A stretch of 40,755 bases of DNA. It comes from an uncultured Cyclobacteriaceae bacterium (GTDB taxonomy: Bacteria; Bacteroidota; Bacteroidia; Cytophagales; Cyclobacteriaceae). The stretch covers positions 1 to 40,755 of the forward strand of contig CALGOB010000191.1 in assembly GCA_937958005.1 (NCBI GenBank), in the 5' to 3' direction. The notes under the pieces are model-generated. The model was given only the letters and a program-made list of their open reading frames with translations. It was not told the origin of the DNA and made no database searches. Both the position numbers and the translations under genes were made by a program. This document shows, piece by piece, positions 5,019 through 34,543 of the stretch (positions within the stretch are counted from its first letter, which is position 1; every line of letters begins with the position of its first letter).

Positions 5019-5088
5019 GTGATTTTTAATAACTTCATTATAACCGTTTTTAGGTTACTTAATAATTTCTAGCTGGTAAATTGTGTTA

Positions 5089-5454: not shown

Positions 5455-5516
5455 ATTATATTTATTTTGTCGTTTTCTTAATGTTTAACCTTACTTGTTG
5501 TTGACTCTTTAGTCTA

Positions 5517-5524
5517 CAAACATA
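5517..5524 (-). promoter_or_regulatory. Possible Bacteroidota -7 promoter element
   Basis: On the minus strand this reads TATGTTTG, matching the Bacteroidota -7 consensus TAnnTTTG. It lies 63 bases upstream of the cheY start at 5454, inside the 130-base gap after the CheC-like gene, the largest gap in this half of the cluster. No clear TTTG -33 element is present at the expected spacing, so support is weak. Confidence 0.25.
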
Positions 5525-5584
5525 TTATTTAACAATCTTTTACTTATTACCCTTTATATAAATATTTTCAAATATTTACATAAG

Positions 5585-6187: not shown

Positions 6188-6256
6188 GTGTCTGATTTTT
6201 AATAATTCTTTAATTGCTTGATCATTCCGTAATTTTAATATTCAACTATTCAATTT

Positions 6257-8624: not shown

Positions 8625-8626
8625 GA

Positions 8627-9490: not shown

Positions 9491-9511
9491 TTGTGTTATT
9501 TAATTTTCTTA

Positions 9512-11440: not shown

Positions 11441-11500
11441 TATTTTATCGTCTTTTCTAATTTGACATCATATTTATCCATGCAAAAAATCACTTATTTA

Positions 11501-12034: not shown

Positions 12035-12098
12035 TTTCTTAATTACTTATTGAGATCCTTTACTAAAATAAAACCCAGTTTATATCCAAAATTATCTT

Positions 12099-13613
12099 CT
12101 AACCAATTACATTATCTACAGCGTCTACTTTAAAATAGACCAAAGATTCTATTAAGTTATTAACCTTAATTTTCAGGTTTACCGCATTTTCCGAAATCTG
12201 ATTTGAAACGCCAGCATTTTTTTGCACGATCATATTTAAGCTTTGAATAGCAGTATTGATTTGTAATGCACCGCTACTTTGTTCCACACTTGCTTCTGAA
12301 ATAGTTCGAACTAAATCAGCGTTTTGTTTTATTTGATTTACCACAGATTGTAGTAATTCACCTGAATGTGTGGCCTTATCTACACCACTAGATGATACAT
12401 CATCTATCTCATTGGCAGCAGACTGGCTTCTTTCAGCCAATTTTCTGATTTCAGCTGCCACTACGGCAAACCCCCTACCATGTTCTCCTGCTCTTGCTGC
12501 TTCAACAGCAGCATTTAATGCTAATAAGTTTGTTTGCCTGGCAATCTCACCAATAATTGAAATTTTATTAGTAATCAACTTCATTGAATCAACTGTTGTA
12601 TTTACTGCTTCATTACCTGAGACAATGTTGGTAGCTGCATTCACTGCTAAAGTTTCCGTTTCTTGAGCACAACTTTTATTCATCTCAATATTGGCTGACA
12701 TCTCCTCCATGGAAGCCGATACTTCTTCTGCTGAACTAGCCTGCTCATTCGAAGCCATTGATAATTCCTGAGATACGTCAGTTAGTTCAGTAATATTTTT
12801 TTCAATAGATGAGGTAGTTTTAGTCACATCAGCCATAATTTTTTGTAACTGTCCGGCCATTTCTTCTATCAATCGAAGTGCTTGACTAAATTCATCTTTT
12901 CCATTAGTTTTCCCAATTTTAAAAGACAGATGCCCTCCAGCTATTATTTTGATAGCCCTGTTAAGCCTGGCCATTTTTGTTACCATAGAATTAGCAACAT
13001 AATATACGATACCGCCATATATGATTGCCATTAAAATCATCCCATAGAGAGCTCCATTTCTAGTTATGGATGCATTACTAAACATGGAATCAGACTCTGA
13101 TTTCATTTTATCACCTTCTATGGTCGAAATGTGACTTAAACCTTCAAGGATTTTAGCAAAACTAAGAGTTGCATTTTTACTACTAAACAAATCAATGATT
13201 GCCCACTGTTCAAATTGATCTTCATTGGATTTCATATTCACTAGTGGGCTGACTATTTGATCTTGCCACTGTTGCTCAAAAGTGATCAAATCAGTTATTT
13301 GTTTAAAATAAATACTACTTGAATCAACTACCTGTGTTAATTTTCTAATTTTGGTTCTAAACGATTTTGCACCAGAATTTTGCGATGTCAAATAATCATT
13401 CTTTCCTGAAGTTATGTAATACAACAAATCATAACGTCTCTTGATCATCGTTTCTTTTAATTCATTGGCTTCCGTAGTCAATGATAGAGACTTATCTATT
13501 TTTACGGCAGTGTCTAACTGATTCCCCATTTTTGTAAATAGGACAAAGGTGATCAATAGCATAAAAAGAAGACCTGCTCCTGCCCCTATGTAAATACTTT
13601 GTTTAATTGTCAT
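12099..13613 (-). CDS. Methyl-accepting chemotaxis protein, CHASE3-like sensor
   Basis: 504 residues. Membrane segments lie at about 7-28 and 187-210. The periplasmic part (about 29-186) has [18 protein letters not shown], which resembles the R-x-Y-x-x-T-G pattern of CHASE3-type four-helix sensors. HAMP follows (about 211-265), then the signalling domain with [20 protein letters not shown] and [20 protein letters not shown]. The protein ends soon after the second signalling helix, with no long tail, unlike the MCP at 9512-11440. It is 51 bases downstream of cheA and probably works in the same array. The stimulus is not evident. Confidence 0.93.
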
Positions 13614-13664
13614 TAGTGTAGCTTAGTTGAAAATTGTTAATTAATTAATTACATACATATGTTT

Positions 13665-15749
13665 CTATATTATTGCTCGTTTGTACTTAAGTTCTTTTTG
13701 TTCTATTATTTTATAGGCATCTAAAACCAATGCCATAGTCCCATCTCCGAGAATAGTTGCTCCAGAGATAAATTGTTGTTCTTTGAAATATTTCCCAACT
13801 GGCTTTAGAACCGCCTGATATTCTCCTTCTATCTTGTCTACAGCTATCGCAATCTTGAGACCTCTGTTTTGAACGATAACAATGTATTCTTCTTCTCTAT
13901 CCCCGTCAAGATCGTAATTAAAAACTCTTCTCAAATCAACAAATGGCAGCTGTTCACCTTCCACCATTACTAATTGGTTAAATTTATTAACGTATTCGTT
14001 CCTGTTAATTTTATAGCACCTTTCTACCTCCATAAGGGGAACTATAAAATCAGTATTTGAAACTTTAATAAGTAAGCCATCTATAACTGATAAAGTGATA
14101 GGTAAACCTAGGGTAATCACAGTACCTCTATCTATTTCTGAATGTACTTTTATATCTCCTCTTAAGTCATGGATATTTCTTCTAACAACATCCATCCCTA
14201 CTCCTCTTCCTGAAATATCTGTTACATCTTTCGCCAATGAAAATCCAGGGGTAAATATCAAATCATAGATTTCTTCTCTGGTTAAGACGTCACTTTTGGA
14301 AATAATACCTCTTTCAATTGCTTTTTCTCTTATTTTCTCTGGATCTATCCCTTTTCCATCATCTTCTATTTCAATAAACACCTTGGTTCCTGAGTAATAG
14401 GACCTAAGCATTATGTAACCATTTTCAGGCTTTCCTTTTTTGACTCTTTCTTCTTTTGATTCTATACCATGATCTAAACTATTCCTAATCAAATGTAGTA
14501 GAGGATCACTGACATTTTCGATAACTCTTTTGTCTAGTTCTGTGTCACCACCTTCAGTCAGAAAATCTACTTCTTTTCCAAGTTGGCTTGATAGGTCTCT
14601 TAATACTCTTTGAAATCTATTAAAAAGACTTTCAACTTGGATCAGCGTCATACCAAAAGCTGTATCCCTTAACTGACGAGTTAATTTCTCAATACTTTCA
14701 GTTATAGTCTGAAGGTCATCTTCTTCCTTTTTATCAGTATAAAGAGAAAGACTGGCCTGTGTTGTTACTAATTCACTTACTAAGTTCATTAGTTCGTCTA
14801 ACTTCACAGTAGGTACCCTAATGGTAGAAGTTGCTTTTTTAATTTTAAAAGTCTCACTTACTCTATTCTTAAATGTAGGCAGTTCTTCAACAGATTCTTC
14901 AGCTGATATCTCAGTTTTATCATTTAGATTACCTTCTTCGGGTTGTAACTGTTCTACTATCTTTTTAAGATCTTCTGGGTCAATTGATCTATCGCTATAA
15001 GATCTTCCACTTATTTCTTTTATAAAAGAGTCTTGATTTAATAAATCATATTCGGCTATTTCGTTTATATCAATAATAGAATCATCCTCTACAAAAATAA
15101 ATACGTCTTTAATAGGGTCTATTCCTTTACTCTTCACAAGAAAAACATCCCAAGTAACATAGGATTTTTTTGGCTCAAAAGAGTTGTCTACAATTCTCTC
15201 GTCAAACCTAGGAAACACTCTTGCCTCTCCTAAATCTGATAACTCATCTATCAATAATAGAGGATTAGTTCCGTTTAAGAAAAGATTCTCATTAGGTTTA
15301 AATTGAATATGATAGGTTACTTTAGATTCAATGGAGTCTTTGACTATTAACAATGCCTCTTGACTCTCTACTGTATCTAATAAATTGATTACCTCATTTT
15401 TAAGTGTCTCATATTCTTCTTTGTTTGAAGTATTTTTTAATTCAGGATCTAAAACAATCTTTTTTAACAGATCTAAAGATTTAAATGTATAATCAATAAT
15501 TTGTTTGGAAAGAAGGGCTTCGCCAGATCTCACCTTATCGTAAATGGTTTCAAGGTGATGCACAAAATCTGCAACTTTAACAGATCCAAACATTCCACTG
15601 CTACCTTTCAGAGTGTGCATTGACCTAAATACATCAGCTACTAAAACATCAGAGTCTCCTGGAGATTTCTCCAAAAGCAATAAGGACTCTTCCATTTTCT
15701 TGAAAAGATCCTCAGCTTCTTCTAGGTATATATCTCTAAGGTTAGACAT
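13665..15749 (-). CDS. cheA: CheA: chemotaxis histidine kinase
   Basis: 694 residues with classical order. P1/Hpt (about 1-105) has phospho-acceptor His45 in FRSMHTLKGSSGMFG. A regulator-binding-like region and a long acidic linker (about 125-310) follow, then the dimerisation helices with LDELMNLVSELVTTQ. The ATPase has LIRNSLDHGIE, EDDGKGIDP, FTPGFS and GRGVGMDVVR. The C-terminal P5/CheW-like domain starts around TLSVIDGLLIKVSN. It autophosphorylates under MCP/CheW control and passes phosphate to CheY and CheB. Its ATG overlaps the TAA of the upstream cheY by one base (TAATG at 15749). All key residues are present, unlike the kinase-like protein at 7788-8624. Confidence 0.97.
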   Translation of the reverse strand: MSNLRDIYLEEAEDLFKKMEESLLLLEKSPGDSDVLVADVFRSMHTLKGSSGMFGSVKVADFVHHLETIYDKVRSGEALLSKQIIDYTFKSLDLLKKIVLDPELKNTSNKEEYETLKNEVINLLDTVESQEALLIVKDSIESKVTYHIQFKPNENLFLNGTNPLLLIDELSDLGEARVFPRFDERIVDNSFEPKKSYVTWDVFLVKSKGIDPIKDVFIFVEDDSIIDINEIAEYDLLNQDSFIKEISGRSYSDRSIDPEDLKKIVEQLQPEEGNLNDKTEISAEESVEELPTFKNRVSETFKIKKATSTIRVPTVKLDELMNLVSELVTTQASLSLYTDKKEEDDLQTITESIEKLTRQLRDTAFGMTLIQVESLFNRFQRVLRDLSSQLGKEVDFLTEGGDTELDKRVIENVSDPLLHLIRNSLDHGIESKEERVKKGKPENGYIMLRSYYSGTKVFIEIEDDGKGIDPEKIREKAIERGIISKSDVLTREEIYDLIFTPGFSLAKDVTDISGRGVGMDVVRRNIHDLRGDIKVHSEIDRGTVITLGLPITLSVIDGLLIKVSNTDFIVPLMEVERCYKINRNEYVNKFNQLVMVEGEQLPFVDLRRVFNYDLDGDREEEYIVIVQNRGLKIAIAVDKIEGEYQAVLKPVGKYFKEQQFISGATILGDGTMALVLDAYKIIEQKELKYKRAII

Positions 15750-21517: not shown

Positions 21518-22372
21518 TTATTTTGCTTTTATAAAAGCACCTATCAATGAGGTAATCGCAGTAATTAAAAAAAATATTAAACTAAAAGCAACTGCGGCAT
21601 TTAAATCAATTCCTAAATGCTCATGTCCTAGTATAAAAGTCATTTCCCTAGCTCCTATACCTCCAATAGTAAATGGTAATACTGCTACTATAGAAGAGAC
21701 TAAAAACATAGTTTGATAAGCTAAATGTTCCTTTAAGGGTATTCCTATTGATAACAAGATAAAATATGCACTGATCAATTGTAGCCCTTGGACTGCTAGT
21801 GAGTACAAACTTGTAGAAATTAAACTATTCACAAAAGAACCAAAAAACAGCTTGTTGAATAAGTAATAAATGGGATATCCAACTAATAAACCCAAATAGA
21901 TCAACCAATCATATCCATAAAGAAAAGGCAATGGCATTAAGTTTATACTAAGGATCAATAAAATTATTAGCAAAGCCATTAGGCCACTGATCCGGTCTAT
22001 CAGTGTAGCTGCGACTAGCTGCTTTACAGTAGTTTTGAATTCTTTATTCAATAAGTAGACTTTATATCCGTCACCTCCTATCCCACCAGGTAGAAATAGG
22101 TTATAAAACATGCCAATAACATAAAGCTTTAAGTTATAGGTTTCAGATAAATTTAGCCATATGGATTTAAAATATCTATTTAACCTTAAAGCAGAAACAA
22201 CCTTAGATGCACCAAAAAAAATGGTCGCAAGGAACAAATACCCATACTGAGTTTCATTTAAAATCTTTTTTGTTTGCTCTATATCGATCTTTTGATAAAC
22301 GAAATACAAGGCAAAACCAGTTAAAATGATTTTACCTGCTGTCTTAAGATACTTTTTCGTTTGTTGCTTCAC
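21518..22372 (-). CDS. Flippase-like membrane protein (LPG-synthase TM family)
   Basis: 284 residues with about 7-8 membrane segments. LPGGIGGDGYKVYLL and FTIGGIGAREM are hallmark motifs of the lysylphosphatidylglycerol synthase transmembrane/UPF0104 family, whose members are thought to move lipid-linked compounds across the inner membrane. It starts with GTG (22370-22372) inside the 3' end of the glycosyltransferase gene (29-base overlap), indicating coupling and a shared pathway, for example glycolipid or lipid-linked sugar handling. There is no aminoacyl-transfer domain, so lipid lysinylation is not implied. The exact substrate is unknown. Confidence 0.85.
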   Translation of the reverse strand: MKQQTKKYLKTAGKIILTGFALYFVYQKIDIEQTKKILNETQYGYLFLATIFFGASKVVSALRLNRYFKSIWLNLSETYNLKLYVIGMFYNLFLPGGIGGDGYKVYLLNKEFKTTVKQLVAATLIDRISGLMALLIILLILSINLMPLPFLYGYDWLIYLGLLVGYPIYYLFNKLFFGSFVNSLISTSLYSLAVQGLQLISAYFILLSIGIPLKEHLAYQTMFLVSSIVAVLPFTIGGIGAREMTFILGHEHLGIDLNAAVAFSLIFFLITAITSLIGAFIKAK

Positions 22373-23297
22373 CTACAAAAATTCGCTTGATACGGTACGT
22401 TTTTTTATTCTGTGCCTCAAAATAGGTTCTTACAATTAATTCTGCCACTAATCCTATGGTAATCAATTGGATTCCACCCAGCAGCAGGGTAATTCCTAAA
22501 ATCAAAAGAGGTCTTCCCCCTATCTCATTTCCTAAAATTTTAATAATTAATAGGTATCCTGAAATACCGATACCAGTTAAAAAAGTGAGAATTCCAGCAG
22601 TACCAAATATATGCATAGGTTTCTGCAAGTATTTTTGAAAAAACACCATTAAAACTAGATCACTCAACACTTTAAAAGTCCTACCTATACCATATTTACT
22701 TTCACCATGAATTCTAGGATGGTGGTTTACGGGCATTTCCGATAACTGGGCCCCTTGTAGTTGTGCCAATACAGGAATAAAACGATGTAATTCTCCATAA
22801 AGCCCCAAGTCTTTAGCTATATTTTTTCTGAAGACTTTAAGAGTACATCCATAATCATGTAGATAAACTCCCGTTAATCTCCTAATCATGGCATTGGCAA
22901 TCTTACTTGGCACCTTCCTTAGCAACATACCGTCTTTTCGTTTGGCACGAATCCCTGCCACCATATCTAGATCTTCCTCTTCAAGTTTCGTCACCATCGC
23001 CGGAATATCGGCAGGATCATTTTGCAAATCACCATCTAAAGTAACTATATATTCACCTATGGCCACATCTATACCTGCAGCCATGGCCGTAGTTTGTCCA
23101 TAATTCTTATTAAGCATCACTAATTTTACTCGTTCGTTGCTGTATTTCTTAATATTGCCTCGAGTATTATCAGAAGACCCATCATCTACAAATATTAGTT
23201 CATAATTCCGGCCTTGAAGCGCTGTATGTACTTGCTCAATCATGGGCTGTACATTGTCTTCTTCATTATAAACTGTTATTACCAATGATAACTCCAT
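22344..23297 (-). CDS. Membrane-anchored family 2 glycosyltransferase
   Basis: 317 residues. A GT2 (GT-A fold) domain spans about 1-225: SLVITVYNEEDNVQPMIEQV at the start, FVDDGSSDNTRG for the nucleotide, TLDGDLQNDP with the metal-binding DGD, and NHHPRIHGESKYG near the acceptor region. Two membrane segments follow (about 235-258 and 268-293). This is the polyprenyl-phosphate glycosyltransferase layout (DPM1/ArnC/GtrB-like), which moves a sugar from a nucleotide donor to a lipid carrier on the cytoplasmic face. The overlapping downstream flippase-like gene would fit export of the product. It starts at ATG 23295-23297, 18 bases after trmB. Confidence 0.9.
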   Translation of the reverse strand: MELSLVITVYNEEDNVQPMIEQVHTALQGRNYELIFVDDGSSDNTRGNIKKYSNERVKLVMLNKNYGQTTAMAAGIDVAIGEYIVTLDGDLQNDPADIPAMVTKLEEEDLDMVAGIRAKRKDGMLLRKVPSKIANAMIRRLTGVYLHDYGCTLKVFRKNIAKDLGLYGELHRFIPVLAQLQGAQLSEMPVNHHPRIHGESKYGIGRTFKVLSDLVLMVFFQKYLQKPMHIFGTAGILTFLTGIGISGYLLIIKILGNEIGGRPLLILGITLLLGGIQLITIGLVAELIVRTYFEAQNKKTYRIKRIFVGEATNEKVS

Positions 23298-23315: not shown

Positions 23316-23969
23316 TTATGCAAACCTAAATTTCATATATTTAATATCCTCTCCTTTTTCAGTAAAAATCTTTTCATATTTAGTCTTAACCCCATAATGT
23401 TCAGACAATAACTCAGATTTATACAGGTCATGCGTATATTCTAGGTCTTTCACTTTGACTTCCCCGTCAAATAGTGAAAGTGTGTAATCGAATAAGGCCG
23501 TATTATCTGTTTTAAATTTGATCCACCCGTCATTCTTTAGCAAGGTCTTATACATCTGCATGAATCTTGGACTGGTCAACCGTCTCTTGATATCTCTATC
23601 TTTGGGTCTAGGATCAGGAAAAGTGATCCAAATTTCACTCAATTCAGAGGGCTCAAAAAATCGTTCAAGTAATAAAATTTGAGTTCTAAGAAAAGCCACA
23701 TTATCTAGGCCCTTTTCTTGTGCCACTGTGCTCCCTTTCCAAATCCTATCTCCTTTTATATCTACTCCTATAAAATTACTTTTAGCATCATTACTTGCTA
23801 ACCCTATTGTGTATTCGCCACGTCCACAACCTAATTCCAATACTAATGATTGTTCATTTCCAAAAAAGTCTGACCAATTTCCTTTAATTGTCTCAAAGAT
23901 ATCTTTGCCTTGCTCCAATACATTTCTACTTTCTCTGTTTTGGGCAAATCTTTCAAGCTTACGTCTCAC
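23316..23969 (-). CDS. trmB: TrmB: tRNA (guanine-N7-)-methyltransferase
   Basis: 217 residues. LVLELGCGRGEYTIGLA is the SAM-binding loop, FIGVDIKGDRIWKG the acidic strand, and ITFPDPRPKDRDIKRRLTSP the TrmB signature around the catalytic region. The enzyme makes m7G46 in tRNA variable loops. The start is GTG (23967-23969) overlapping the TGA of folC (GTGA), so translation is coupled. Length is normal for the family and all key motifs are intact. Confidence 0.95.
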   Translation of the reverse strand: MRRKLERFAQNRESRNVLEQGKDIFETIKGNWSDFFGNEQSLVLELGCGRGEYTIGLASNDAKSNFIGVDIKGDRIWKGSTVAQEKGLDNVAFLRTQILLLERFFEPSELSEIWITFPDPRPKDRDIKRRLTSPRFMQMYKTLLKNDGWIKFKTDNTALFDYTLSLFDGEVKVKDLEYTHDLYKSELLSEHYGVKTKYEKIFTEKGEDIKYMKFRFA

Positions 23970-25246
23970 AATGCTTCTATTTCTGCTACTACAAATGTAC
24001 TACCCCCTACAAAAACCAAATCATTATCGCTTGATTCACTAATTGCTAAATTCAAGCAATCATTTACATCTGAACAAGTGACAAAATCAAAGGATTTATC
24101 TAATGCTTCTTTTTTTAAATTATCTAGAGCCATAGCCCTTGGTATTTTGGGTTCGCAAAGATAATACTTTGCAGTTAAGGGGAGCAAATCGAATATCTTA
24201 CTAATTTCCTTGTCATTTACCATTCCCAAAACAATACGCAACTGCTTATATGAGGTATGGCTGAGTTGATACAAAATTTCATTCCAACCATCTTCATTAT
24301 GCCCTAAATCAGCTATCACTTTTGGTGAGGTCATTAATTCTTGCCACCTTCCTTTTAATCCTGTATTCCGAGCAACCAAGCTAATCCCATTTGCCAACTG
24401 GTCATTTTGAATTATAAAACCCTGTTTTCTAAGCTCTTCAACTGTCTCAATAATTGTAGGTATATTTTTCAAGTAATAATTTCCTTTAACCCCTAAGGTT
24501 AATGAAGTAAAAATCAATTGACCTTTTTTGCTAATATCTACAGGCATATGAGAACTAGTAATCACATAATCAATCGTCTGATTATTAACATTACTACGCC
24601 TTTCGTTAGCAACTTCCATGAAAACTTCTCTTATTCCTTCAGGTAAATCTTTAGGCAATACAACAGGTGTATCTTGTTTGATAATTCCTGCTTTCTCTTT
24701 CGCAATTTGTTTCAATGTATTACCTAATACATGGGCATGATCCATTCCAATGGAAGTAATAGTGGATACTAAAGGTTTGATAATGTTAGTGCTATCTAAA
24801 CGTCCGCCTAAGCCTGTTTCTATAATGGCTATATCAACTTGAGAATCTCTAAAATAGGCAAATGCCATAGCTACTGAAATTTCAAAAAAAGATGGTTTTA
24901 AATCTTCTATTAATTCCTTTTGACTACTCACAAAATCAACCACATATTCCTGTGAAATCATTTCGCCATTGAGACGTATTCTTTCCCTGTAATCTTTTAA
25001 ATGTGGAGAAGTATAAAGTCCTGTCGAATAGCCTGCTTCTTGGAGAATAGAAGCTAAAGTATGTGCTGTTGTTCCTTTACCGTTAGTTCCAGCAATGTGT
25101 ACTGATCTAAACTTATTTTGAGGGTTTCCTAAACGCTCGCATAATGCAATAATATTACTTAAATCAGCTTTATATGCTTTTTCACCCTGTTTTTGAAACA
25201 TAGGTAATTGACTATATAAATAGTCCATGACTGCTTGATAAGTCAT
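23966..25246 (-). CDS. folC: FolC: folylpolyglutamate/dihydrofolate synthase
   Basis: 426 residues, cytoplasmic Mur-ligase-family enzyme. HIAGTNGKGTTAHTLASI is the P-loop region, GLYTSPHLKDYRERI the FolC-specific substrate loop, GLGGRLDSTN and SIGMDHAHVLG further Mur-ligase motifs, and VIADLGHNEDGW the domain-linking segment. It adds glutamate to folates using ATP and may also make dihydrofolate from dihydropteroate. It lies 8 bases downstream of the TonB-like gene. No degeneration is seen. Confidence 0.95.
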   Translation of the reverse strand: MTYQAVMDYLYSQLPMFQKQGEKAYKADLSNIIALCERLGNPQNKFRSVHIAGTNGKGTTAHTLASILQEAGYSTGLYTSPHLKDYRERIRLNGEMISQEYVVDFVSSQKELIEDLKPSFFEISVAMAFAYFRDSQVDIAIIETGLGGRLDSTNIIKPLVSTITSIGMDHAHVLGNTLKQIAKEKAGIIKQDTPVVLPKDLPEGIREVFMEVANERRSNVNNQTIDYVITSSHMPVDISKKGQLIFTSLTLGVKGNYYLKNIPTIIETVEELRKQGFIIQNDQLANGISLVARNTGLKGRWQELMTSPKVIADLGHNEDGWNEILYQLSHTSYKQLRIVLGMVNDKEISKIFDLLPLTAKYYLCEPKIPRAMALDNLKKEALDKSFDFVTCSDVNDCLNLAISESSDNDLVFVGGSTFVVAEIEAL

Positions 25247-25254
25247 GTATATTC

Positions 25255-26208
25255 TTAATTTGCTTTGATAATAAAGGTAATTCTACCAGTACTAAAGGAA
25301 GCAGGCTTATAATCAGATTTTTTACTAAAAGTCAACTCTTCAACTGCCCTTCTATAAACTTGTTCTACTGCGGGTGTAACTGTTTTTTCTAGGGTTTTAA
25401 TCTCAACGATAATACCTTCATCATCTACTGTAATTTTAAAAACAATCTTACCACTTTCAATAGAAGTATCATCAGGTTCAGGTTCATCATCCCATTTCCA
25501 TCCAGAAAGTTCCAGAGAGGATCCATTACTGCTGCCTGGGTTTCCATACAATGCTTGTGCTTCTACTTTCCCATCTGGTTCTCCTTGATCTCCTTCAGTA
25601 CTTTTATCACCATTACCTGAGGAATCATTATCTTCTTCAGCATTTTCAACAGAGTTATTAGCTGCTGGCTTTTCTGATTGTGCGTTACTGTTTATCGGTT
25701 TTGCTTCTTCTACCTCTTTCTTTGGTTCCACCTTTTCAGATTTTACTTCTTCTATTGGCTTTTCTTCAGTTGGTGTTTCTGGAGCTTGAGTTGTTTCAGT
25801 AGCAGTTTCTACTACATCAGGGCTATCTGTAGCAGCTACTTCTTGATTTTGACTTTCGGCAGTTTCTACAGGTTGACTATCTTCAATTGGTGTATTTTCT
25901 ACAGGGGTTTCTTCTGTACTTTCAACATTTTCTGAAGTTGTTTCTACGGGTTCCTGAGCTTCTACTTCATCATTCTGAGTATCCTCATTTTGAGTCTCTT
26001 CAGTAGCCTGCTGGTCTACAGTGGCTTTAGGTTGCACCTTGCCATTTCCAAAATTTTGGGTACCAAAATTAATCTCTATTCCATATTCAGGGTTAGGTGG
26101 GTCAGGCACACGCCAAGCTATTAGAAAAATAACCAATAATAATAGGCTAGTGTGAATAGCAGCTGAAATAATGATTACCTTTCTTTTATTTTTCTTTTCG
26201 TATTCCAT
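25255..26208 (-). CDS. TonB/TolA-like energy transducer
   Basis: 317 residues from ATG 26206-26208, one base after the exbD stop; a TTG seven codons upstream is less likely. A short basic N-terminus and one membrane segment (about 11-32) are followed by a long low-complexity region (about 50-225) rich in Glu, Thr, Pro, Ala and Asn, acidic rather than the Lys-Pro type of classical TonB. The C-terminal domain (about 245-317; GKIVFKITVDDEGIIVEIKT and FSTGRITFIIKAN) resembles a TonB C-terminal domain. With ExbB and ExbD it should form an inner-membrane motor reaching across the periplasm. Whether it serves an outer-membrane receptor or a Tol-like role is not decidable from sequence. Confidence 0.85.
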   Translation of the reverse strand: MEYEKKNKRKVIIISAAIHTSLLLLVIFLIAWRVPDPPNPEYGIEINFGTQNFGNGKVQPKATVDQQATEETQNEDTQNDEVEAQEPVETTSENVESTEETPVENTPIEDSQPVETAESQNQEVAATDSPDVVETATETTQAPETPTEEKPIEEVKSEKVEPKKEVEEAKPINSNAQSEKPAANNSVENAEEDNDSSGNGDKSTEGDQGEPDGKVEAQALYGNPGSSNGSSLELSGWKWDDEPEPDDTSIESGKIVFKITVDDEGIIVEIKTLEKTVTPAVEQVYRRAVEELTFSKKSDYKPASFSTGRITFIIKAN

Positions 26209-26209
26209 C

Positions 26210-26599
26210 TTAGTTTGGTTTAGTTGCAATGGAAACTTTAGCTTCTAAAGAAGTTGCTATATCAGCAACAGAGATAAAATCCTGAACTGGAACGTCTTTG
26301 TCACAATGTAACACAACCAAACCTTCCTTTCCAGCAAACTCATTCCTTAAGACTATTTTGAGCCTACTTAAAGAAACTTCCTTATCGTTTACAAAAAACT
26401 TACCTTTATTGGTAATAGTAACACTCACCTTTTGTAAAACTATAGTTGAGTTTTTACTAGTTGGTAAGTTGACTGGTTGACCGGAAGGCGTTATGAATGA
26501 GGAAGTTAACATAAAAAAGATCAATAAAAGGAATACAACATCAGTCATAGACGAGGTACTAAATGCGGCTTGTACTTTATGTTTAGAACTTAAATTCAT
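26210..26599 (-). CDS. exbD: ExbD/TolR-type motor protein
   Basis: 129 residues. One membrane segment (about 18-36) begins with MTDVVFLLLIFFML, whose Asp20 is the conserved proton-pathway residue of ExbD/TolR. The periplasmic domain follows, with VNLPTSKN and VSVTITNKGKFFVNDKEVSL as in the family. The ATG overlaps the TGA of exbB (ATGA). It pairs with ExbB to convert proton flow into motion of the TonB-like protein encoded directly downstream. Confidence 0.93.
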   Translation of the reverse strand: MNLSSKHKVQAAFSTSSMTDVVFLLLIFFMLTSSFITPSGQPVNLPTSKNSTIVLQKVSVTITNKGKFFVNDKEVSLSRLKIVLRNEFAGKEGLVVLHCDKDVPVQDFISVADIATSLEAKVSIATKPN

Positions 26600-27285
26600 T
26601 TCTGAGGTTCTTGTAATAAATCGATAAATTCAACAGAATTAAATTCCATATTATGGATAACTTTCTGTACCCTAGCTACCAAAAAATTATAACCAAGATA
26701 AGCTAAGATACCTACAAAAAGACCCGCTGCTGTAGTAACCATTGCTTCATAAATACCTCCTGAAAGCAATTTAGGACTAACTGCCCCTTCTTCTTGAGCT
26801 ATAGCTATAAAAGCTGAGATCATCCCTGTTACTGTCCCTAAAAAGCCAATCATAGGTGCAGCTCCAGAAATAGTAGCTAATAGGCTGAGGTTTTTTTCAA
26901 GCCTATAAACTTCTATTTTACCAATATTCTCAATTGAAACTTCTATATTTTTCAAAGGACTACCTATTCTAGACAATCCTTTTTCTATCATTCTTGCAAT
27001 AGGTGTATTCGTTTGCTGACAGAATAACCTGGCTCCGTTAATATCCCCATTGATTACCTTATTCCTAATTTCATCTTTAAAGCTCTCTGGAGTTCCTCCG
27101 GCACTTCTGATATGTGACAGTCTTTCAAAAAAGATATAAACAGCCAATATCCACAAAAGCAATATTGGCACCATCATATATCCTCCATTTAATAGAAGAT
27201 CTAAAATGGATATGGACTCTACTAACTCTTCTTCAGCTCCAATGCCAGAAGGGTCAATTTGCATAAACAAGGCAATTTTATTCAT
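26596..27285 (-). CDS. exbB: ExbB/TolQ-type proton channel
   Basis: 229 residues with three membrane segments (about 35-53, 130-155 and 175-200). SGAAPMIGFLGTVTGMISAF and EAMVTTAAGLFVGILAYLGY are the MotA/TolQ/ExbB family motifs, with the conserved Thr residues lining the channel. The loop between segments 1 and 2 is cytoplasmic, as in the family. It starts at ATG 27283-27285 (a second ATG seven codons in is possible), 56 bases after the SPOR-protein gene. It is the first gene of the exbB-exbD-TonB-like-folC-trmB run. Confidence 0.93.
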   Translation of the reverse strand: MNKIALFMQIDPSGIGAEEELVESISILDLLLNGGYMMVPILLLWILAVYIFFERLSHIRSAGGTPESFKDEIRNKVINGDINGARLFCQQTNTPIARMIEKGLSRIGSPLKNIEVSIENIGKIEVYRLEKNLSLLATISGAAPMIGFLGTVTGMISAFIAIAQEEGAVSPKLLSGGIYEAMVTTAAGLFVGILAYLGYNFLVARVQKVIHNMEFNSVEFIDLLQEPQK

Positions 27286-27341
27286 ATGTACCTTAACGAA
27301 TAATTTATGGAATAATTACATTTAGTATTCATTAATTACAA

Positions 27342-28628
27342 CTAATATCTAAGTGCCCAAACGTCATCGCCAAATTCGTCTTTATAATCATCTAGGTAAC
27401 TAGCTGCACCTTCAAAAGTGTCAAATTCTGCAATACCAACTCTTGTATACAATGACTTTCCAAAAGGAGGAATTACATAAGGACTTTTACCTTGCGCTGC
27501 CAATTCATTAGCATAGTCTAAAGCTAGGTCTCCATCAATAAGGCTGCCAACAATGATATATGCTTTATTTCTACTCTCCGTTAAGGTAGAAACAGTACCA
27601 GCTGCTACAGAATTAGCTGTAGCGACAGGCCTATTACTAGTAGATCCTTTTCCTGCAGCTTCATTTGTGGTATTATTGTTCGCTGAATCTTCACTTGAGG
27701 TCTGCCCGGTATTACCATTACCTGAACCTGAAGTACCTTCTGATGTAGCAGTAATTTCAGGGTCTGTTATTTCAACTTTCTTTGGTTCTGGTTCAGCGTT
27801 CTTTCTCCGTGACTTTTTATTTTCAACAGTTGCTTTTTTACTACTAGCATCATCACCATCAAAAATACCACCAACCCAGAACAATACTAAGGCCAAAATA
27901 AATACTGCACTTATACCAATAATTAAATATGGGGTAAATGCTTTACTTTTACCTTCAGCCTCGTCACCAGCATAAGCATATGCATTCTCTCCAGTTTCAT
28001 CAATATCTGCAAAATCGTCATCCTCAAAATCAGCTAATCCTTCATCGTTATCGCTCCCATCAAAGACCATCCCCATATCATCTCCTCCATCTAATGAAAA
28101 ATCATCATCCAAGTCTGATTCATTCGCTTCTTCCAAGACACCACCTATGTCTAAATCATCTGTTTCATCATCACCTAATCCCAATACACCTTCTAGTTCA
28201 TCTCCTGATTCAAGACTTAAGTCATCATCCAAATCTGACTCATCTGCTGGTTCTAAAATACCTTCTAATTCAACATTGTCAGTTTCTAATACCAAATCAT
28301 CTTCATCATCCAACAAATCATCACTATCAAGATCCGCACTGATATCACTTAAGTCATTAGAATCATCATCATCAAATGAATCAATTGCATCAAAATCAAC
28401 AGAATCCAGATCTACTGAATCTAAATCCATAGATACATCATCTAAACTTCCTGTGGATTCTTCTGCCTCATCTAAAGCAAAATCCATAATTCCTTCTGTG
28501 TCATCATCAGAATCTAGTTCATCATCTAACTCGTCATATTCCAAATCTGGTAAACCAAAATCATCTTCATCAAATAAGTTATCGTCGTTTTCTTCTGGTT
28601 CCTCGTTATCGAAATTATCCTTTGCCAT
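27342..28628 (-). CDS. SPOR-domain membrane protein with very acidic cytoplasmic half
   Basis: 428 residues. Residues 1-225 are extremely Asp/Glu/Ser-rich and contain an imperfect 40-residue repeat (ILEPADESDLDDDLSLESGD near 124-143, VLEEANESDLDDDFSLDGGD near 164-183). One membrane segment lies at about 232-255. A periplasmic linker rich in Ser/Thr/Asn leads to a SPOR-like domain (about 350-428; AYIIVGSLIDGDLALDYANE and SLYTRVGIAEFDTFEGAASY). SPOR domains bind glycan strands lacking stem peptides at division sites. Orientation puts the acidic half in the cytoplasm, perhaps as a docking or charge-based scaffold. The gene lies between the barrel gene and exbB, suggesting a link with that motor. 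Confidence 0.85.
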   Translation of the reverse strand: MAKDNFDNEEPEENDDNLFDEDDFGLPDLEYDELDDELDSDDDTEGIMDFALDEAEESTGSLDDVSMDLDSVDLDSVDFDAIDSFDDDDSNDLSDISADLDSDDLLDDEDDLVLETDNVELEGILEPADESDLDDDLSLESGDELEGVLGLGDDETDDLDIGGVLEEANESDLDDDFSLDGGDDMGMVFDGSDNDEGLADFEDDDFADIDETGENAYAYAGDEAEGKSKAFTPYLIIGISAVFILALVLFWVGGIFDGDDASSKKATVENKKSRRKNAEPEPKKVEITDPEITATSEGTSGSGNGNTGQTSSEDSANNNTTNEAAGKGSTSNRPVATANSVAAGTVSTLTESRNKAYIIVGSLIDGDLALDYANELAAQGKSPYVIPPFGKSLYTRVGIAEFDTFEGAASYLDDYKDEFGDDVWALRY

Positions 28629-28746
28629 AAGTTATAATTGGTTTACTTCAACTGCCGAAAATAACACAAAAGTTACCTATGCACGAAGTTTATTGTATTT
28701 TTTTATCTTAAAGTTATAAAAATAAGTGGATATTTAGTAAAATTAA

Positions 28747-30417
28747 TCAGAATGAATACGTAAATCCTGCACTTACTTGCAATCCTCTACCTTGGTAATT
28801 TAAATACCGCTCATAGTTTTCTCCAATGATATTATTTAAATTCAGATAAATTCCAGCTCTATCCGATAGGATATACTTGCTCTGCAAATTAAGTAACACG
28901 GTAGCCTCTAAAGTTTCTTGTTCACCTGTTTGTAAATTGATTCCTTCAATACCAGATAATATATTGAATGAAGGTGAAAGAATTACCTTATCAAAAATAT
29001 TGTATTTGGCAGTGATGTCAAATTCCAATGTAGGTTTATGCCAAGCTTCAGCTAAAACATCTGTGTCATAACCATAAAAATTGGATTCCAATTGAACGCT
29101 TGCTTTCTCAAAGAATGAATAAGCAACACTAGCGGAAAATTTAAATACTGAAACGTTGTCATAAAGTATATCAAATCTTGTACTATCATTTAATCCATTT
29201 GCAAAAAAGGATTGATTATTAATACTACCTGCTGAAAAACTAACACTTGCACTAATCTTATCATTAACTTTTCCATTTACTCCCCCATAAAACTCTAATT
29301 TATTACTTGCATTGACTAGTGCTTGCCGAGGCCCTACCCAAGGGTTCTCACTGGAAAGGTTATTAAATGAAGTAAAGCTTTTTCCTCCCGTAATCCCTCC
29401 ATAAACATCAAATGTTTCGGATATAGGAAATCTTACATGTACATGAGGGAAAACAGAAGATTTCTTATTAGTGCTGAGCGTATCATTATCTAGTGCTACT
29501 TGAAATCCTAAAGTAAGGTAAACGCCTGAAATCTTTCTTTCGTAAGTTGGTTTAAACAACAGTAAGTTTCTATTGATACTTGTTGAATCCTCATATTGTG
29601 ATAATGTACCTTCTACTTCTAGTCCAATTACACTTTCTTCATCTAACTTATAGCTAAAACCTCCATCCAAGTTGAAATTATTTTCGGATGCCTGAAAAGT
29701 ATTCTTAAAAGAAGCAAAGCCTGTTTCAATCTGATACCTGAGCGGGCTATTCTGGTTTGTTCCAAAAAAACCAAGATTGACATTAAACCGGTCAAACTGT
29801 TGTCTAATACTGTCTTGATTAGGTGGTGTATCTGATAGCTGATAACCATAGAAATGATTAATGGCGTTCTTGTATCCAATGGAGGCATATGAGGTTGTTT
29901 TTTTGCCAAAAATCTTACCAAACACTTCTACATCCGTATTACCAGAAGCACTATTCTCATCATCTACAGCTCCTTTTCCAAAAGAATAATGATTAAAATT
30001 TAAACCATAACTATATAACTTATCTCTTTTACTTGCTAATGCAAGATCTACATACGGGGAGCTAAAATTCCCATAACCTAAGGTAATTTTGTTTCCATAC
30101 AATTTCGTAATAGGTTGCTTTGGGATTTTTTGCAACTTGATATTGGGTAGTTTTACATTAGGTGTAAAATCAAAAGATTTCACTCTGTAAGAAATACTAC
30201 CACTACCAATTTCACTTTTCTCTTCCTTAATCGGCTTAAAAAATCGGTTTGCTTTTGGTAATTCAAGCGGCTTATTCTTATCTATGATAAACTGAGCGGC
30301 ATCTATTTCACCATCAGGATTCCATTTAGGATCGTTTTCTGTTTCTTGTGCTGCCAATAGACAACTATTGGAAAGGATTACTACAATTATTAATATTTTT
30401 TTGATCAGCCTAGTCAT
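28747..30417 (-). CDS. Outer-membrane beta-barrel protein
   Basis: 556 residues. A signal peptide (about 1-22, ending CLLAAQE) and a soluble N-terminal part of about 90 residues precede a long series of amphipathic strands such as ITLGYGNFSSPYVDLALASK, VFKFSASVAYSFFEKASVQL and LQVSAGFTYSF. The C-terminus is Phe, as expected for BAM-dependent barrels. About 20 strands are possible, similar to a TonB-dependent receptor barrel, but no clear plug domain or TonB box is visible. It overlaps the TPR gene by 8 bases, so the two form a pair. The substrate is not known. Confidence 0.8.
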   Translation of the reverse strand: MTRLIKKILIIVVILSNSCLLAAQETENDPKWNPDGEIDAAQFIIDKNKPLELPKANRFFKPIKEEKSEIGSGSISYRVKSFDFTPNVKLPNIKLQKIPKQPITKLYGNKITLGYGNFSSPYVDLALASKRDKLYSYGLNFNHYSFGKGAVDDENSASGNTDVEVFGKIFGKKTTSYASIGYKNAINHFYGYQLSDTPPNQDSIRQQFDRFNVNLGFFGTNQNSPLRYQIETGFASFKNTFQASENNFNLDGGFSYKLDEESVIGLEVEGTLSQYEDSTSINRNLLLFKPTYERKISGVYLTLGFQVALDNDTLSTNKKSSVFPHVHVRFPISETFDVYGGITGGKSFTSFNNLSSENPWVGPRQALVNASNKLEFYGGVNGKVNDKISASVSFSAGSINNQSFFANGLNDSTRFDILYDNVSVFKFSASVAYSFFEKASVQLESNFYGYDTDVLAEAWHKPTLEFDITAKYNIFDKVILSPSFNILSGIEGINLQTGEQETLEATVLLNLQSKYILSDRAGIYLNLNNIIGENYERYLNYQGRGLQVSAGFTYSF

Positions 30418-33400
30418 TGTTATTTTCCTCTACGTTATTTAATGAATCAATCAAAATGGTAGAATCTTTAGGAATGATGACTTCCTTTTCTTTTTCCTCT
30501 AATTCTGATAGCTTTTGCCTTGCTTGTACCACTAATAACTGATCTTCAGCTTTTTCAATAATGGAATTAAGAGTAGCTTTAGCTTGGAACAATTCGTCCA
30601 ATGCCAAATAATTGTCAGCAATTAATAAAAATGATTTACCCAACCATTCATCAAACTGGGCAAACTGTTTGTTCAAATTAAACAATGTCTGAAGGGATGT
30701 TTTATATTTCTTAGTCACATAATAAAGTTTCCCAAGCTCATAATTTGCTTCAGCTGCTGTTTCATCTTTTACCCCATTGACCAAGTCTAAATAAATGTCT
30801 TCTGCTGTGGGGTAGTCTTTATTGGTTACAGATATTTTCCCTGATACTAGCTGGGCTTTGTTTTTTAAGTCTGAAGACAATTTTTTCTGCTCAGTAATCT
30901 TATTAACATATAACAAAGTTGAATCGTAATTTTTTTGATCAAAAAATACGGACATAATTCCTTCCCATGCGTTTCCTAATTCCCTCCTATTCCTTGCCTT
31001 ATTCTCAAGTTGTTTAAAGAAATACAATGCTTCTTCATATTCTTCTTCATCAGTAAGTATTGTCCCCAACCTATCCAAAGATCTTCTTTGATAAGTATTT
31101 TGATCATCAGCTACTACCTTTCTTAAATAAGGAATAGCCTCTATTTCATCCCCAGAACGATAATAGCTATCTGCAATGTAATAATCAGCTTCACTTAAAG
31201 ATGCACTGTTATTGTATTTATCTTGAAAGGTCTTAAAAGCTGAAATTGCTTGCTCATATAGCTGTTTGAAATAAAATGATTTAGCCGCTTCAAACTCTAC
31301 TTTCTCTAAACTTTCATCGTCTGGATTAGCTTGTTGAAACTTTGCTAAATAATTATTGAACTCATCCAAATCACCAGTATTGGTAGAGACTTCTTGTAAT
31401 CCGATTAAAGCATCATTGGCTTTTGGGTGAGTCACATATTGATCTAGTACATACTTATAATCATTAGCACTTTTCTTAAACTGTTGTAAATTTGAATAAG
31501 CAAGTGCTCTTTTGATCAATGCAATAGGAATTAAGCTACTTTGTTTTCTGTTATCAATTAAAGAACTAAATCCTTCTATTGCTGTCAGGTAATCACCATC
31601 TTCAAATGAAACTTCTGCTTTTTGTAAAATTGCGTTATCAACGTAACCAGAGCTTGGATAACCTTCAATTACTTTTTGGTAATAGTCCTTGGCAGTTTCA
31701 TTATTTGATTGCAAGGCATTTACTACCCCCAATTGAAAAAAAACATAATCCTTTTTGCTGTTACCACCTTCTAAAAGACTTTCGTAGGTCTTAACTGCAG
31801 TACGGTAATCCTTAGTCACATAAAAACAATCTGCTAATCTTAACCTAGCATCATCAATGTAATAGTCATTACCGTTACTCCCTGCAGGGATTCTCGATAA
31901 ATATGATTTAAAGTTTGCCAATGCATTCGTATAGTCTTTGGTATTATAATAGGCATAGCCAAGCCCATATCTTGCTTTTACATGGTACACAGCAGAATTA
32001 GAACTAGTAGCTGTTACATAGAGAGAAGATTTATAAGCTTTAATTGCCTCTTTGTACAGTTTGCCAATACTATATGCCTCACCCATCCAAAAATGAGCTG
32101 ATATAGTTCTCTCATTGGATTTTTTGTGTTTTAGGGATTTTTCAAAGTACTTAACAGAGCTGGAAAATTTTCTATTGTTGAATTCTTCAGTGCCTTTTAG
32201 GTAGGTCACCTCTTGATAAGTAGTTTTTAGGTCTTCAGATAGGCTTGATAGAGATTCAATATATGAAATAGCAATATCATAATTTGAGGTGCTTAAAAAT
32301 GCTTTGGTCAAGAATTCTTTAGACTCGTTACTGTAAGATCCGTCGGGGTATTCATCATTGTATTTTTTAAGATGCCCTATACTTTCTCCGAAATTTCCAA
32401 GATCAAAATCCACTTTAGCCAATTGGTACAAAGATTCCTCTTTGATTATTGGTTTTTCTGATTTCAGGGCTTCAGAGAAAGCTGCTTTAGCGTAAGCTTT
32501 ATTTTCTGTTTCAATATAGAGTTTTCCTAAATAGTAGGAACTGTAGGCTCCTACCTCAGTTTCATCCAAGGCAGAAAATTTATACTTTTCAATTGCTTTT
32601 TCATTTTGATCAAGTTTACGATAAGTTTCTGCCATATTAAAAAATATGTCCGTAGATGCTCTATTTCTAGTTTTTAGAAGCCCTTTTTCGTAATAGATAA
32701 TGGCATCTTTATACTCTTCCTTATTAAAATGAGCATTTGCTCTTATAAAATAAAGCTCTGGGTTTTTATCCATTACCTCAGGGCTTAACCCTCTTACAAA
32801 AGCGATTGCTTCTCTGAAATTATTGTTTCTGAAATAGATATTTCCAATCATCAAAGCTGCCGATCTGCCAAAACGTTCATCTTGTGATGCTGTTAGCAAA
32901 GCAGTAAGTGCTGTAGTTAAATCATCATCTTGATAAGCTAGATAACCCTTATAATAATTGGCTGCAAGAAAGTGTTCGCAAGTAGGATCGGTTACCTGAC
33001 TAAATGAAGATTTTGCATTCTCAAAATCCTTTCTGTTTAAATAAGAATATCCCAGTTTGAAATTCAGGTCACATGCCAAGCTAGCCTGATTTTTAGATTG
33101 TTCAAAATTGGAAATTGCTTTTTGATATTTACCGTTTTGATAATAATAATCACCAATGGTGTAGCGTGCCGTAGAAGATTTAGAGTGTAAGGGAAAATCA
33201 CTGATAAAATTTTCCATTAAATATTCCCCATCATTATGGTATAATTTGATTGCACAGATAGCCCTGTAATATTGTGCATCTCCTAAATATTTTCTATTGG
33301 ATGTACCAGCAATATATTTTTCAAACGATTGACGAGCTAGGTTATAATGTTTGTCGTCATACTGGTTAAGACCCACTTGATAATAATTTACATTTGATAG

Positions 33401-33475
33401 TGAGTTTGAAGATGGCTGAGCAAACATGTTGAATGCTTGTGCTAGAGCCATGAAAGTAAGTAGTATGTATTTCAC
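30410..33475 (-). CDS. Large exported tetratricopeptide-repeat protein
   Basis: 1021 residues from GTG (33473-33475). The signal peptide is MKYILLTFMALAQAFNMFAQ. Almost the entire mature chain consists of TPR units, many with clear signatures (e.g. ARYTIGDYYYQNGKYQKAIS, ARYGLGYAYYNTKDYTNALA, ADYYIADSYYRSGDEIEAIP), perhaps 20-25 repeats. The spacing resembles BamD/CpoB (YbgF)-type periplasmic TPRs. The C-terminus is acidic and Asn-rich. It overlaps the barrel gene and is followed by the SPOR/ExbB/ExbD/TonB-like set, so a periplasmic scaffold for that envelope machine is a reasonable inference. It is 30 bases downstream of holA. Confidence 0.85.
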   Translation of the reverse strand: MKYILLTFMALAQAFNMFAQPSSNSLSNVNYYQVGLNQYDDKHYNLARQSFEKYIAGTSNRKYLGDAQYYRAICAIKLYHNDGEYLMENFISDFPLHSKSSTARYTIGDYYYQNGKYQKAISNFEQSKNQASLACDLNFKLGYSYLNRKDFENAKSSFSQVTDPTCEHFLAANYYKGYLAYQDDDLTTALTALLTASQDERFGRSAALMIGNIYFRNNNFREAIAFVRGLSPEVMDKNPELYFIRANAHFNKEEYKDAIIYYEKGLLKTRNRASTDIFFNMAETYRKLDQNEKAIEKYKFSALDETEVGAYSSYYLGKLYIETENKAYAKAAFSEALKSEKPIIKEESLYQLAKVDFDLGNFGESIGHLKKYNDEYPDGSYSNESKEFLTKAFLSTSNYDIAISYIESLSSLSEDLKTTYQEVTYLKGTEEFNNRKFSSSVKYFEKSLKHKKSNERTISAHFWMGEAYSIGKLYKEAIKAYKSSLYVTATSSNSAVYHVKARYGLGYAYYNTKDYTNALANFKSYLSRIPAGSNGNDYYIDDARLRLADCFYVTKDYRTAVKTYESLLEGGNSKKDYVFFQLGVVNALQSNNETAKDYYQKVIEGYPSSGYVDNAILQKAEVSFEDGDYLTAIEGFSSLIDNRKQSSLIPIALIKRALAYSNLQQFKKSANDYKYVLDQYVTHPKANDALIGLQEVSTNTGDLDEFNNYLAKFQQANPDDESLEKVEFEAAKSFYFKQLYEQAISAFKTFQDKYNNSASLSEADYYIADSYYRSGDEIEAIPYLRKVVADDQNTYQRRSLDRLGTILTDEEEYEEALYFFKQLENKARNRRELGNAWEGIMSVFFDQKNYDSTLLYVNKITEQKKLSSDLKNKAQLVSGKISVTNKDYPTAEDIYLDLVNGVKDETAAEANYELGKLYYVTKKYKTSLQTLFNLNKQFAQFDEWLGKSFLLIADNYLALDELFQAKATLNSIIEKAEDQLLVVQARQKLSELEEKEKEVIIPKDSTILIDSLNNVEENNND

Positions 33476-33505: not shown

Positions 33506-34543
33506 TTAATGCAGTATTTTAAAGACTAACTCTTTGATCATAGACCCTTCTGATTGATTCCCACTAGCCCCTACCCCTTTCAATTTCATATCTGCATCTC
33601 TAACGAAAGATAAATTATTGATGACTTTTTGCAAGGGATAGTTTCTTATTGCAGTTAAATATTCATTGACAAAATATGGATTTACCCCAATGGCAGAAGC
33701 TATCTCATTGTTATTTGCTTGTCCATTTTTCATCAGTACTCCGTGCACAAGTAACAGCTTATTAAAATATGCAAATAAATTAAATATGATTAAAATAGAA
33801 GGGTTATTTTTTGGATTTGCATCAAAATAGTTTATTATCTGATTTGCTTTCAAAACCTGTTTAAAGGACAATGCTTTTTGTAATTCAAAGACATTGTACT
33901 CTTTACTAATTCCAATATACTTACTAACCTGATGATCCTCAATCTTAATTTTTTCTGAGAAATTGGTTAAAAGCTTATCTATTTCATTGGTAATTCTGGT
34001 CAGGTTGTTGCCAATAGAATCTGCAATCATTTGGGTGGCTTTGGGTGTAACTTCAAATGCTTTCTCAGCAAAATAGCTTTTCACAAAATCAGGGATTTGA
34101 TTGTCGTATAGTTTTTTCGTAACTAAATTGACACTTTCAGCATCTATTAACTTTCCTATTTTTTTTCTTTTATCAACTGTCTTATACTTGTAACAAAACA
34201 CCAAGATGGTGGAAGGTTGAGGATTTTGAAAATAATTTACTAACAATGCACCTCCTTTCTCGCTATTAAAATCCTTGATTTCCTGCGCTTCTTTCACAAT
34301 GACCACCTGCCTTTCCGACATCATCGGAAATCGCCTTGCATTATTTATTACTGCACTTACATCTGCATCTTTCCCATAAATAACAACTTGGTTAAACCCT
34401 TTTTGAGATTCCTCTAGAGCATGTTCTTCTATGAAATCAGAAATTCTGTCAATAAAATATGTTTCATCACCTTGTAAGAAATAAATAGGTGCAAACTGTT
34501 TTTTCTTTAATTGACTTAATATTGAATCAAAATTGACTGCCAT
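33506..34543 (-). CDS. holA: HolA: DNA polymerase III delta subunit
   Basis: 345 residues. The clamp-loader delta pattern is present: PIYFLQGDETYFIDRISDFI at the N-terminus, INNARRFPMMSERQVVIVKE, LVFCYKYKTVDKRKKIGKLI, LTRITNEIDKLLTNF and VFELQKALSFKQVLKANQII. Delta opens the beta sliding clamp during loading. The normal length supports a complete gene. It starts at ATG 34541-34543 and probably leads the minus-strand run down to 21518, with only short gaps between genes. Confidence 0.93.
   Translation of the reverse strand: MAVNFDSILSQLKKKQFAPIYFLQGDETYFIDRISDFIEEHALEESQKGFNQVVIYGKDADVSAVINNARRFPMMSERQVVIVKEAQEIKDFNSEKGGALLVNYFQNPQPSTILVFCYKYKTVDKRKKIGKLIDAESVNLVTKKLYDNQIPDFVKSYFAEKAFEVTPKATQMIADSIGNNLTRITNEIDKLLTNFSEKIKIEDHQVSKYIGISKEYNVFELQKALSFKQVLKANQIINYFDANPKNNPSILIIFNLFAYFNKLLLVHGVLMKNGQANNNEIASAIGVNPYFVNEYLTAIRNYPLQKVINNLSFVRDADMKLKGVGASGNQSEGSMIKELVFKILH

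Follow-up and report, generated by a model that had tools for sequence, protein, structure and literature searches.

Tol-pal loci are not identifiable in Bacteroidetes according to a 2025 paper (PMC12204202), in which PorE and CHU_0125-type Pal-like lipoproteins are proposed as the tether between outer membrane and wall in these bacteria. CHU_0125 is a TPR-PD40-OmpA protein, and the outer-membrane integrity of Cytophaga hutchinsonii depends on it (PMC5891637). For the PVC group, the 2025 paper describes tolQ-like and tolR-like genes that have a TPR gene as a neighbour, together with a transmembrane (TM)-anchored transducer, which there is a vWA protein accompanied by two tolR-like genes (PMC12204202). 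Here we describe a six-gene set on the minus strand of a 40,755-nucleotide stretch of DNA, hereafter the window, from an uncultured Cyclobacteriaceae bacterium (assembly GCA_937958005.1, contig CALGOB010000191.1, positions 1 to 40,755 of the forward strand). At window positions 25255–33475 it encodes, head to tail, a large periplasmic TPR protein, an outer-membrane barrel, a SPOR protein, ExbB, ExbD and a TonB/TolA-like protein. We read the six genes as encoding one proton-driven trans-envelope machine that is Tol-like yet not Tol-Pal and probably works at the division site, and we give this reading a probability of about 0.47.

The likeness to Tol-Pal lies in the ExbB/ExbD-type proton motor, the transducer with its SxxxH helix and TonB/TolA-type end domain, and the periplasmic TPR protein. 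The set differs in including a SPOR protein (with an HU domain in part of the phylum) and a barrel without a plug, in the lack of TolB and Pal in the locus, and in an ExbB class that does not group with E. coli TolQ, itself on a long branch. The Ton system with its TonB-dependent transporters shares the motor, the TonB-type end domain, the 22-strand barrel and, in many families, a TonB-box-like tail motif, whereas here the plug is missing, TPR and SPOR proteins are regular partners, and most family genomes with the barrel hold a single match to it. The set falls short of Tol-Pal membership in two features (TolB and Pal in the locus) and of TonB-dependent transporters in one (the plug). It resembles the PVC-group system in its TPR, motor and TM-anchored transducer genes, but no vWA family was matched in the window operon by Pfam. 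PorE and CHU_0125-type proteins are encoded elsewhere in the genome and are candidate partners rather than members of the set. The HU-CCDC81-SPOR domain pair fills the SPOR slot of relatives, and the window version is without HU. Among the matches listed for open-licence PubMed Central papers (preprints excluded), titles and abstract openings gave no apparent description of the gene set, and no link of HU-CCDC81-SPOR proteins to TPR, barrel, ExbBD and TonB was apparent among the matches listed for such papers.

The genes are tightly packed. The TPR gene (30410–33475; 1021 amino acids, aa) matches TPR Pfam models, and its product has a signal peptide, recognized by eye, with no cysteine in it. 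The TPR gene overlaps the barrel gene (28747–30417; 556 aa) by 8 bases, and the SPOR gene (27342–28628; 428 aa) follows after 118 bases. After a further 56 bases come the genes for the ExbB/TolQ-type motor protein (26596–27285; 229 aa) and the ExbD/TolR-type protein (26210–26599; 129 aa; Pfam ExbD), which overlap by 4 bases. The TonB/TolA-like force transducer (25255–26208, ATG at 26208; 317 aa) starts 1 base beyond ExbD and ends 8 bases before folC (23966–25246; TIGR01499, 357 bits), a housekeeping neighbour just outside the set. The gene upstream of the TPR gene, identified by Pfam/NCBIfam, is holA (33506–34543), on the minus strand like folC. Direct Pfam calls were obtained for ExbB, ExbD, TPR, folC and holA. 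Pfam was silent on the window's SPOR protein and barrel, and the TonB-like protein gave two sub-threshold matches to unrelated families, so the three identities were checked through relatives and structural models. Held-out profiles of 51–52 members each, restricted to Pontibacter, Hymenobacter, Rufibacter and allied genera, matched all six proteins of the set (SPOR 44, TonB 207, barrel 359, TPR 806, ExbB 332 and ExbD 158 bits), and reversed-peptide decoys gave no match at E ≤1. A preliminary description of this DNA, made from the letters alone, had listed these six genes, with the SPOR protein as acidic, and folC as seven colinear, short-spaced genes; coordinates, Pfam, relatives and models agree with that account.

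The ExbB of the locus is, on sequence evidence, a separate class. A quickly built 57-row tree separates 27 ExbBs of this class from 30 others (Shimodaira-Hasegawa-like approximate likelihood ratio test, SH-aLRT, 89; branch not starred), the class taking in members located apart from a TPR-barrel pair. It branches away from exbB-exbD-exbD Ton sets; two exbD-like genes lie beside the exbB of each of 26 more ExbB loci in the phylum. The genome of the window has four MotA_ExbB matches, one of them in a set with two ExbD-like genes, judged by eye (L002). The tree leaves an affinity to TolQ or to ExbB undecided, the two E. coli proteins pairing with each other on long branches. Compared with solved chains, the ExbB profile matched TolQ best (81 bits; positions 25–228 of 234), followed by ExbB (60 bits, over the core). 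The NCBIfam TolQ model gave the window ExbB 88.7 bits, below its cut-off of 221, and the broader family name given by Pfam MotA_ExbB is retained here. Elsewhere in this genome (locus L003, contig C234), a short ExbB-like gene precedes a small gene that has a single hydrophobic stretch and, by eye, resembles a MotB-type partner.

The transducer is modelled as a TM helix (residues 6–32; 26113–26193) with an S-x-x-x-H motif inside it, a disordered linker, and a TonB/TolA-type C-terminal domain (residues 228–317; 25258–25527) with a predicted local distance difference test score (pLDDT) of about 95. The [ST]xxxH motif stands near the N-terminus in 20 of 23 transducers. Fold comparison (VIA) gave the end domain a Z of 9.0 with TonB and 7.8 with TolA, and Foldseek ranked TonB domains first, with no E-value ≤0.001. 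The modelled fold thus appears slightly nearer to TonB than to TolA; given the motif and both fold scores, TolA and TonB are not told apart.

Gene order is well kept near home. The barrel was found in 59 of 60 genomes of the window's family, as a single match in 56 of the 59. At 20 loci from these genomes, barrel, SPOR, ExbB, ExbD and TonB were colinear in every case, joined by TPR in 18. The full holA-to-folC order was present in 50 of 80 named Cytophagales loci, the best 80 of 177 found. Among the 68 named loci of at least 18 kilobases (kb), the barrel and SPOR genes were present in all, TPR in 67, TonB in 66, and ExbB and ExbD in 63. The named and family sets are not independent, as at least eight named loci come from family genomes. 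Two Cytophagales loci (L173 and L178) show TPR-barrel-SPOR alone.

Across the phylum, the same parts recur in several arrangements. Of 296 phylum genomes, 200 gave a match to the barrel profile, and within the same class outside the order 60 of 61 did so; many of the matches outside the class are weak and partial, and weak C-terminal barrel matches in other classes, which can be ordinary transporters, were used only beside TPR, SPOR or ExbB. For each of 43 families among the matches listed, a single genome served as representative (f37, f41–f43, f45, f46 and f48 have none). With the TPR profile, 41 of these 43 gave a match at E ≤1e-20, 36 of them scoring 360 bits or more, and the ExbB profile matched all 43, in either this class or the other one. 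Neighbourhoods were tabulated for f1 and 38 further families (f12, f15, f17 and f28 left out), the profiles used being those for folC, holA and the members of the six-gene set. Loci were picked variously via barrel, TPR or ExbB, 20 of them via HU matches, and genes were counted as adjacent when less than 600 bases apart on the same strand. Among the 38 further families, TPR adjoins barrel in 29, barrel adjoins SPOR in 27, SPOR adjoins ExbB in 16 and ExbD adjoins TonB in 15. ExbB and ExbD of this class adjoin in 24, or 25 with f7, which is listed in reverse. SPOR and TonB stand together without ExbBD in five of the 38. The arrangement TPR-barrel-SPOR-TonB occurs in f14, f22, f24, f27 and f49, in genomes where no ExbB of this class was seen. 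In f7 and f32, TPR and barrel share a locus with a larger gap; in f8, the TPR-barrel pair was seen in two genomes other than the representative. TPR-barrel lies separate from the motor genes in f3, f5–f7 and f9–f11; TPR is separate from barrel-SPOR-exbB-exbD-tonB in f21, f23 and f50; exbB-exbD-tonB is upstream of TPR-barrel in f38; and folC adjoins tonB in f2, f4 and f10. The frame behind ExbD in f9 looks TonB-type and was missed by the profile. One genome (G187; L255 and L264) has two TPR-barrel sets, one followed by exbB-exbD-tonB and the other by SPOR. Since the same parts keep company in several arrangements, a shared function is suggested. The preliminary description had proposed conservation of gene order across Bacteroidota as a check, and the order is indeed kept in many families.

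TPR-barrel pairs work in alginate and cellulose export. By analogy, the set could be an export or outer-membrane biogenesis conduit, in which an open barrel and the TPR protein pass lipid, polysaccharide or wall fragments and the motor supplies power. TPR-barrel is the most widespread pair, occurring also without ExbBD nearby, and the barrel has no plug. The window additionally has a glycosyltransferase family 2 gene (22344–23297) and an LPG_synthase_TM gene (21518–22372) behind folC and trmB. However, this glycosyltransferase neighbours the set at no more than 1 of 20 family, 4 of 80 named and 0 of 70 other-family loci, and LPG_synthase_TM in 1 of 20, 0 of 80 and 0 of 70, respectively, other kinds of synthase having been screened within the window. 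The glycosyltransferase was accordingly dropped as a sign of polysaccharide export, not being a conserved neighbour. The barrel is moreover of the transporter type, and a conduit leaves the SPOR protein and HU domains unexplained. We consider this explanation unlikely.

The SPOR protein was identified through homologues and the other-family profile. It consists of an acidic N-terminus with 100 D/E versus 3 K/R, one TM helix (residues 235–253; 27870–27926) placed at the hydropathy maximum, a linker, and a SPOR domain at about residues 352–428 (27345–27575), delimited by alignment of the C-terminal ends by eye (profile match 237–429). SPOR PF05036 was found in 26 of 27 Cytophagales homologues, the window protein being the sole one without it. 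The solved chains matched by the SPOR profile are FtsN, the best, then DedD, and also DotF and a sporulation amidase, all weakly (E 1e-4 to 5e-3). Many relatives carry a further, DNA-binding domain fused to SPOR: among Cytophagales SPOR proteins from barrel-found loci, HU-CCDC81_bac_2 occurs in 12 of 27 and HU-CCDC81_bac_1 in 11. In a phylum-wide set of 34, SPOR was matched in 30 and HU-CCDC81_bac_2 in 17, a share that is inflated and gives no estimate of frequency, as 13 of the 33 relatives came via HU matches. A 2017 study by Burroughs and others reportedly predicted that bacterial HU-CCDC81 proteins act in chromosome partition. Many HU-less SPOR proteins (the window's and several of L105–L168) have in common a short [FY]-G-L-P motif at the N-terminus, which may be a binding site.

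The motor logic of the Tol-like reading would equally serve a general outer-membrane homeostasis motor independent of division, for example one working along the whole cell; the genome encodes a Pal-like CHU_0125 protein, and the septal site proposed here is itself deduced. But SPOR adjoins the barrel in 27 of the 38 families, and its nearest solved relatives, FtsN and DedD, are division proteins, which makes a division-independent motor quite unlikely in our view.

The barrel models as a TonB-dependent-transporter barrel without a plug. The AlphaFold2 model, built with 28 sequences (mean pLDDT 77), has a signal-peptide helix, a tail of ~86 residues with pLDDT below 50 and, over residues 110–555, 22 main strands. 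Among solved structures it comes closest in fold to BtuB, FrpB, FhuA and further TonB-dependent transporters, and its sequence profile matches chiefly the C-terminal strands of such transporters. Pfam Plug matched none of 28 barrels (E ≤0.01) and none of 30 (E ≤0.001); as a positive control, it recovers 36 plugs from the window's genome. The periplasmic tail (residues 24–109; 30091–30348) is predicted to be disordered, with pLDDT <50 over residues 22–106. Alignments show a conserved motif in it (residues 36–58; 30244–30312), which reads GEIEDAExVIEKxRxIELPxAxR in the window's kin and lines up with a TonB-box-like motif of other families. At the tail start these carry, for example, LPDFVITG (f16), LPEFIVTG (f24) and PREVEIRG (f13), close to segments such as LDQFIVTG and LDDVVITG that precede the plug in transporters encoded by the window genome. 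The pattern [DE][VIFTYALMS]x[VIL]x[GA], chosen after looking, occurs in 18 of 34 family tails versus 4.0 ± 1.9 (maximum 11) in 1000 shuffles, with f39 dropped as mis-called and the match of f33 sitting off the aligned motif. It matches 8 of 15 transporters of the window's genome, partly off the true TonB box, which makes the comparison a soft one. An extended pattern (P2) was discarded, as it matched 3 of 34 tails and 85 of 1000 shuffles were equally high. We treat the identity of the tail motif as a TonB box as a lead rather than an established result.

An ordinary Ton system, dedicated to the uptake of one nutrient, would account for the transporter-type barrel fold, for the 2 of 30 barrel members that match the Pfam transporter-barrel model, and for the TonB-box-like motif in many tails. 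Against it are the missing plug, the near-universal presence of the barrel in the family (59 of 60 genomes) and the constant SPOR partner. The same genome also has another exbB set with two exbD-like genes and 36 plug-bearing transporters. A plug and a TonB box in the barrel were named in the preliminary description as marks of a plain transporter; no plug was found, and the TonB-box-like motif is present in many families, though by the pattern not in the window. A TonB-box-like tail without a plug argues for energised coupling over a plain transporter, and we regard single-nutrient uptake as very unlikely.

The TPR protein was also tried as a CpoB orthologue, which was rejected because its 216 bits on TolPal-YbgF arise from ten repeat stretches. 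A part in type IX secretion or gliding, suggested by 83 bits on the PorW/SprE model, is most improbable, since the cut-off is 250, the score likely reflects shared TPR repeats, and no type IX secretion system family was named among the window proteins scanned, screening having covered the window.

The preferred reading remains a Tol-like machine that is not Tol-Pal. The earlier suggestion of a Tol counterpart rather than a nutrient uptake system gains from the SPOR partner, the HU-SPOR fusions in relatives and the separate ExbB class, and it is supported in part; seven families with SPOR-ExbB-ExbD and no recognized TonB-like gene behind them count against it. Pfam/NCBIfam named neither TolB nor Pal among the holA-folC proteins of the window, as the preliminary description had already noted. 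E. coli TolB and Pal queries (phmmer) found nothing beside the 26 other ExbB loci, mostly ~14–19 kb long, where a one-sequence TolB query could miss distant homologues. Pal-like proteins do exist elsewhere in the genome, which has 23 OmpA-domain matches, one of CHU_0125 type (810 bits versus a cut-off of 620).

Several further observations, together with the lack of TolB and Pal at the locus, weigh against the reading. By sequence the transducer is weakly placed: TonB_C Pfam matched 2 of 23 transducers, and the sole solved chain matched by the transducer profile is a TonB chain, in its linker, outside the end domain. In seven of the 16 families with SPOR beside ExbB (f13, f18, f25, f29, f35, f39 and f44), no TonB-like gene follows ExbD by profile, and none of the open frames behind ExbD looks TonB-like in a test that is crude in GC-rich DNA. 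Two Sporocytophaga loci (L134 and L137) and one of Siphonobacter (L175) keep TPR-barrel-SPOR and have TonB without ExbBD at the locus. The fetched loci of f36 and f40, which were ExbB loci only, held none of the set, and f47 had TPR only. The strict tail pattern found no match in f1–f11, the window among them, and the tail on which the proposed contact depends is the part of the barrel modelled below a pLDDT of 50. HU-CCDC81_bac_2 was found neither in the window's SPOR protein nor anywhere in its genome. Finally, a SPOR domain alone is no proof of a septal role and is only suggestive of one.

With these points taken into account, we infer the following mechanism for the Tol-like machine. ExbB and ExbD would form a proton-driven motor that drives the TonB/TolA-like rod across the periplasm. 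The end domain of the rod would bind the flexible N-terminal tail of the plugless barrel, presumably descended from TonB-dependent transporters, and the TPR protein would dock on the periplasmic face of the barrel. The TPR and SPOR proteins may hold barrel and motor together and attach them to the septal wall, with the SPOR protein anchoring the complex to the peptidoglycan of the septum; in those members of the phylum where it carries an HU domain, this domain may also touch the nucleoid. Force on the barrel would then draw the outer membrane inward at division, jointly with the Pal-like CHU_0125/PorE proteins encoded elsewhere. A bolder version, which we put forward tentatively and at less than even odds, is that of a phylum-wide, undescribed division machine replacing Tol-Pal, whose motor would pull the plugless barrel via a former TonB box while SPOR ties it to the septal wall and, in part of the phylum, HU ties it to the chromosome.

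Apart from the gene set, the window has a chemotaxis-type cluster (2412–15749) that includes a NIT-HAMP protein with a histidine-kinase ATPase domain, two MCP-domain proteins and a CheA-type protein.

The gene set is a concrete, testable candidate for the energised part of outer-membrane constriction in Bacteroidota without tol-pal. It joins subjects that were previously separate, namely Ton-type motors, SPOR division proteins and HU-CCDC81 proteins. A plugless barrel retaining a TonB-box-like motif would be an unusual reuse of a transporter, and the set as a whole could supply the energised half beside the Pal-like CHU_0125/PorE tethers.

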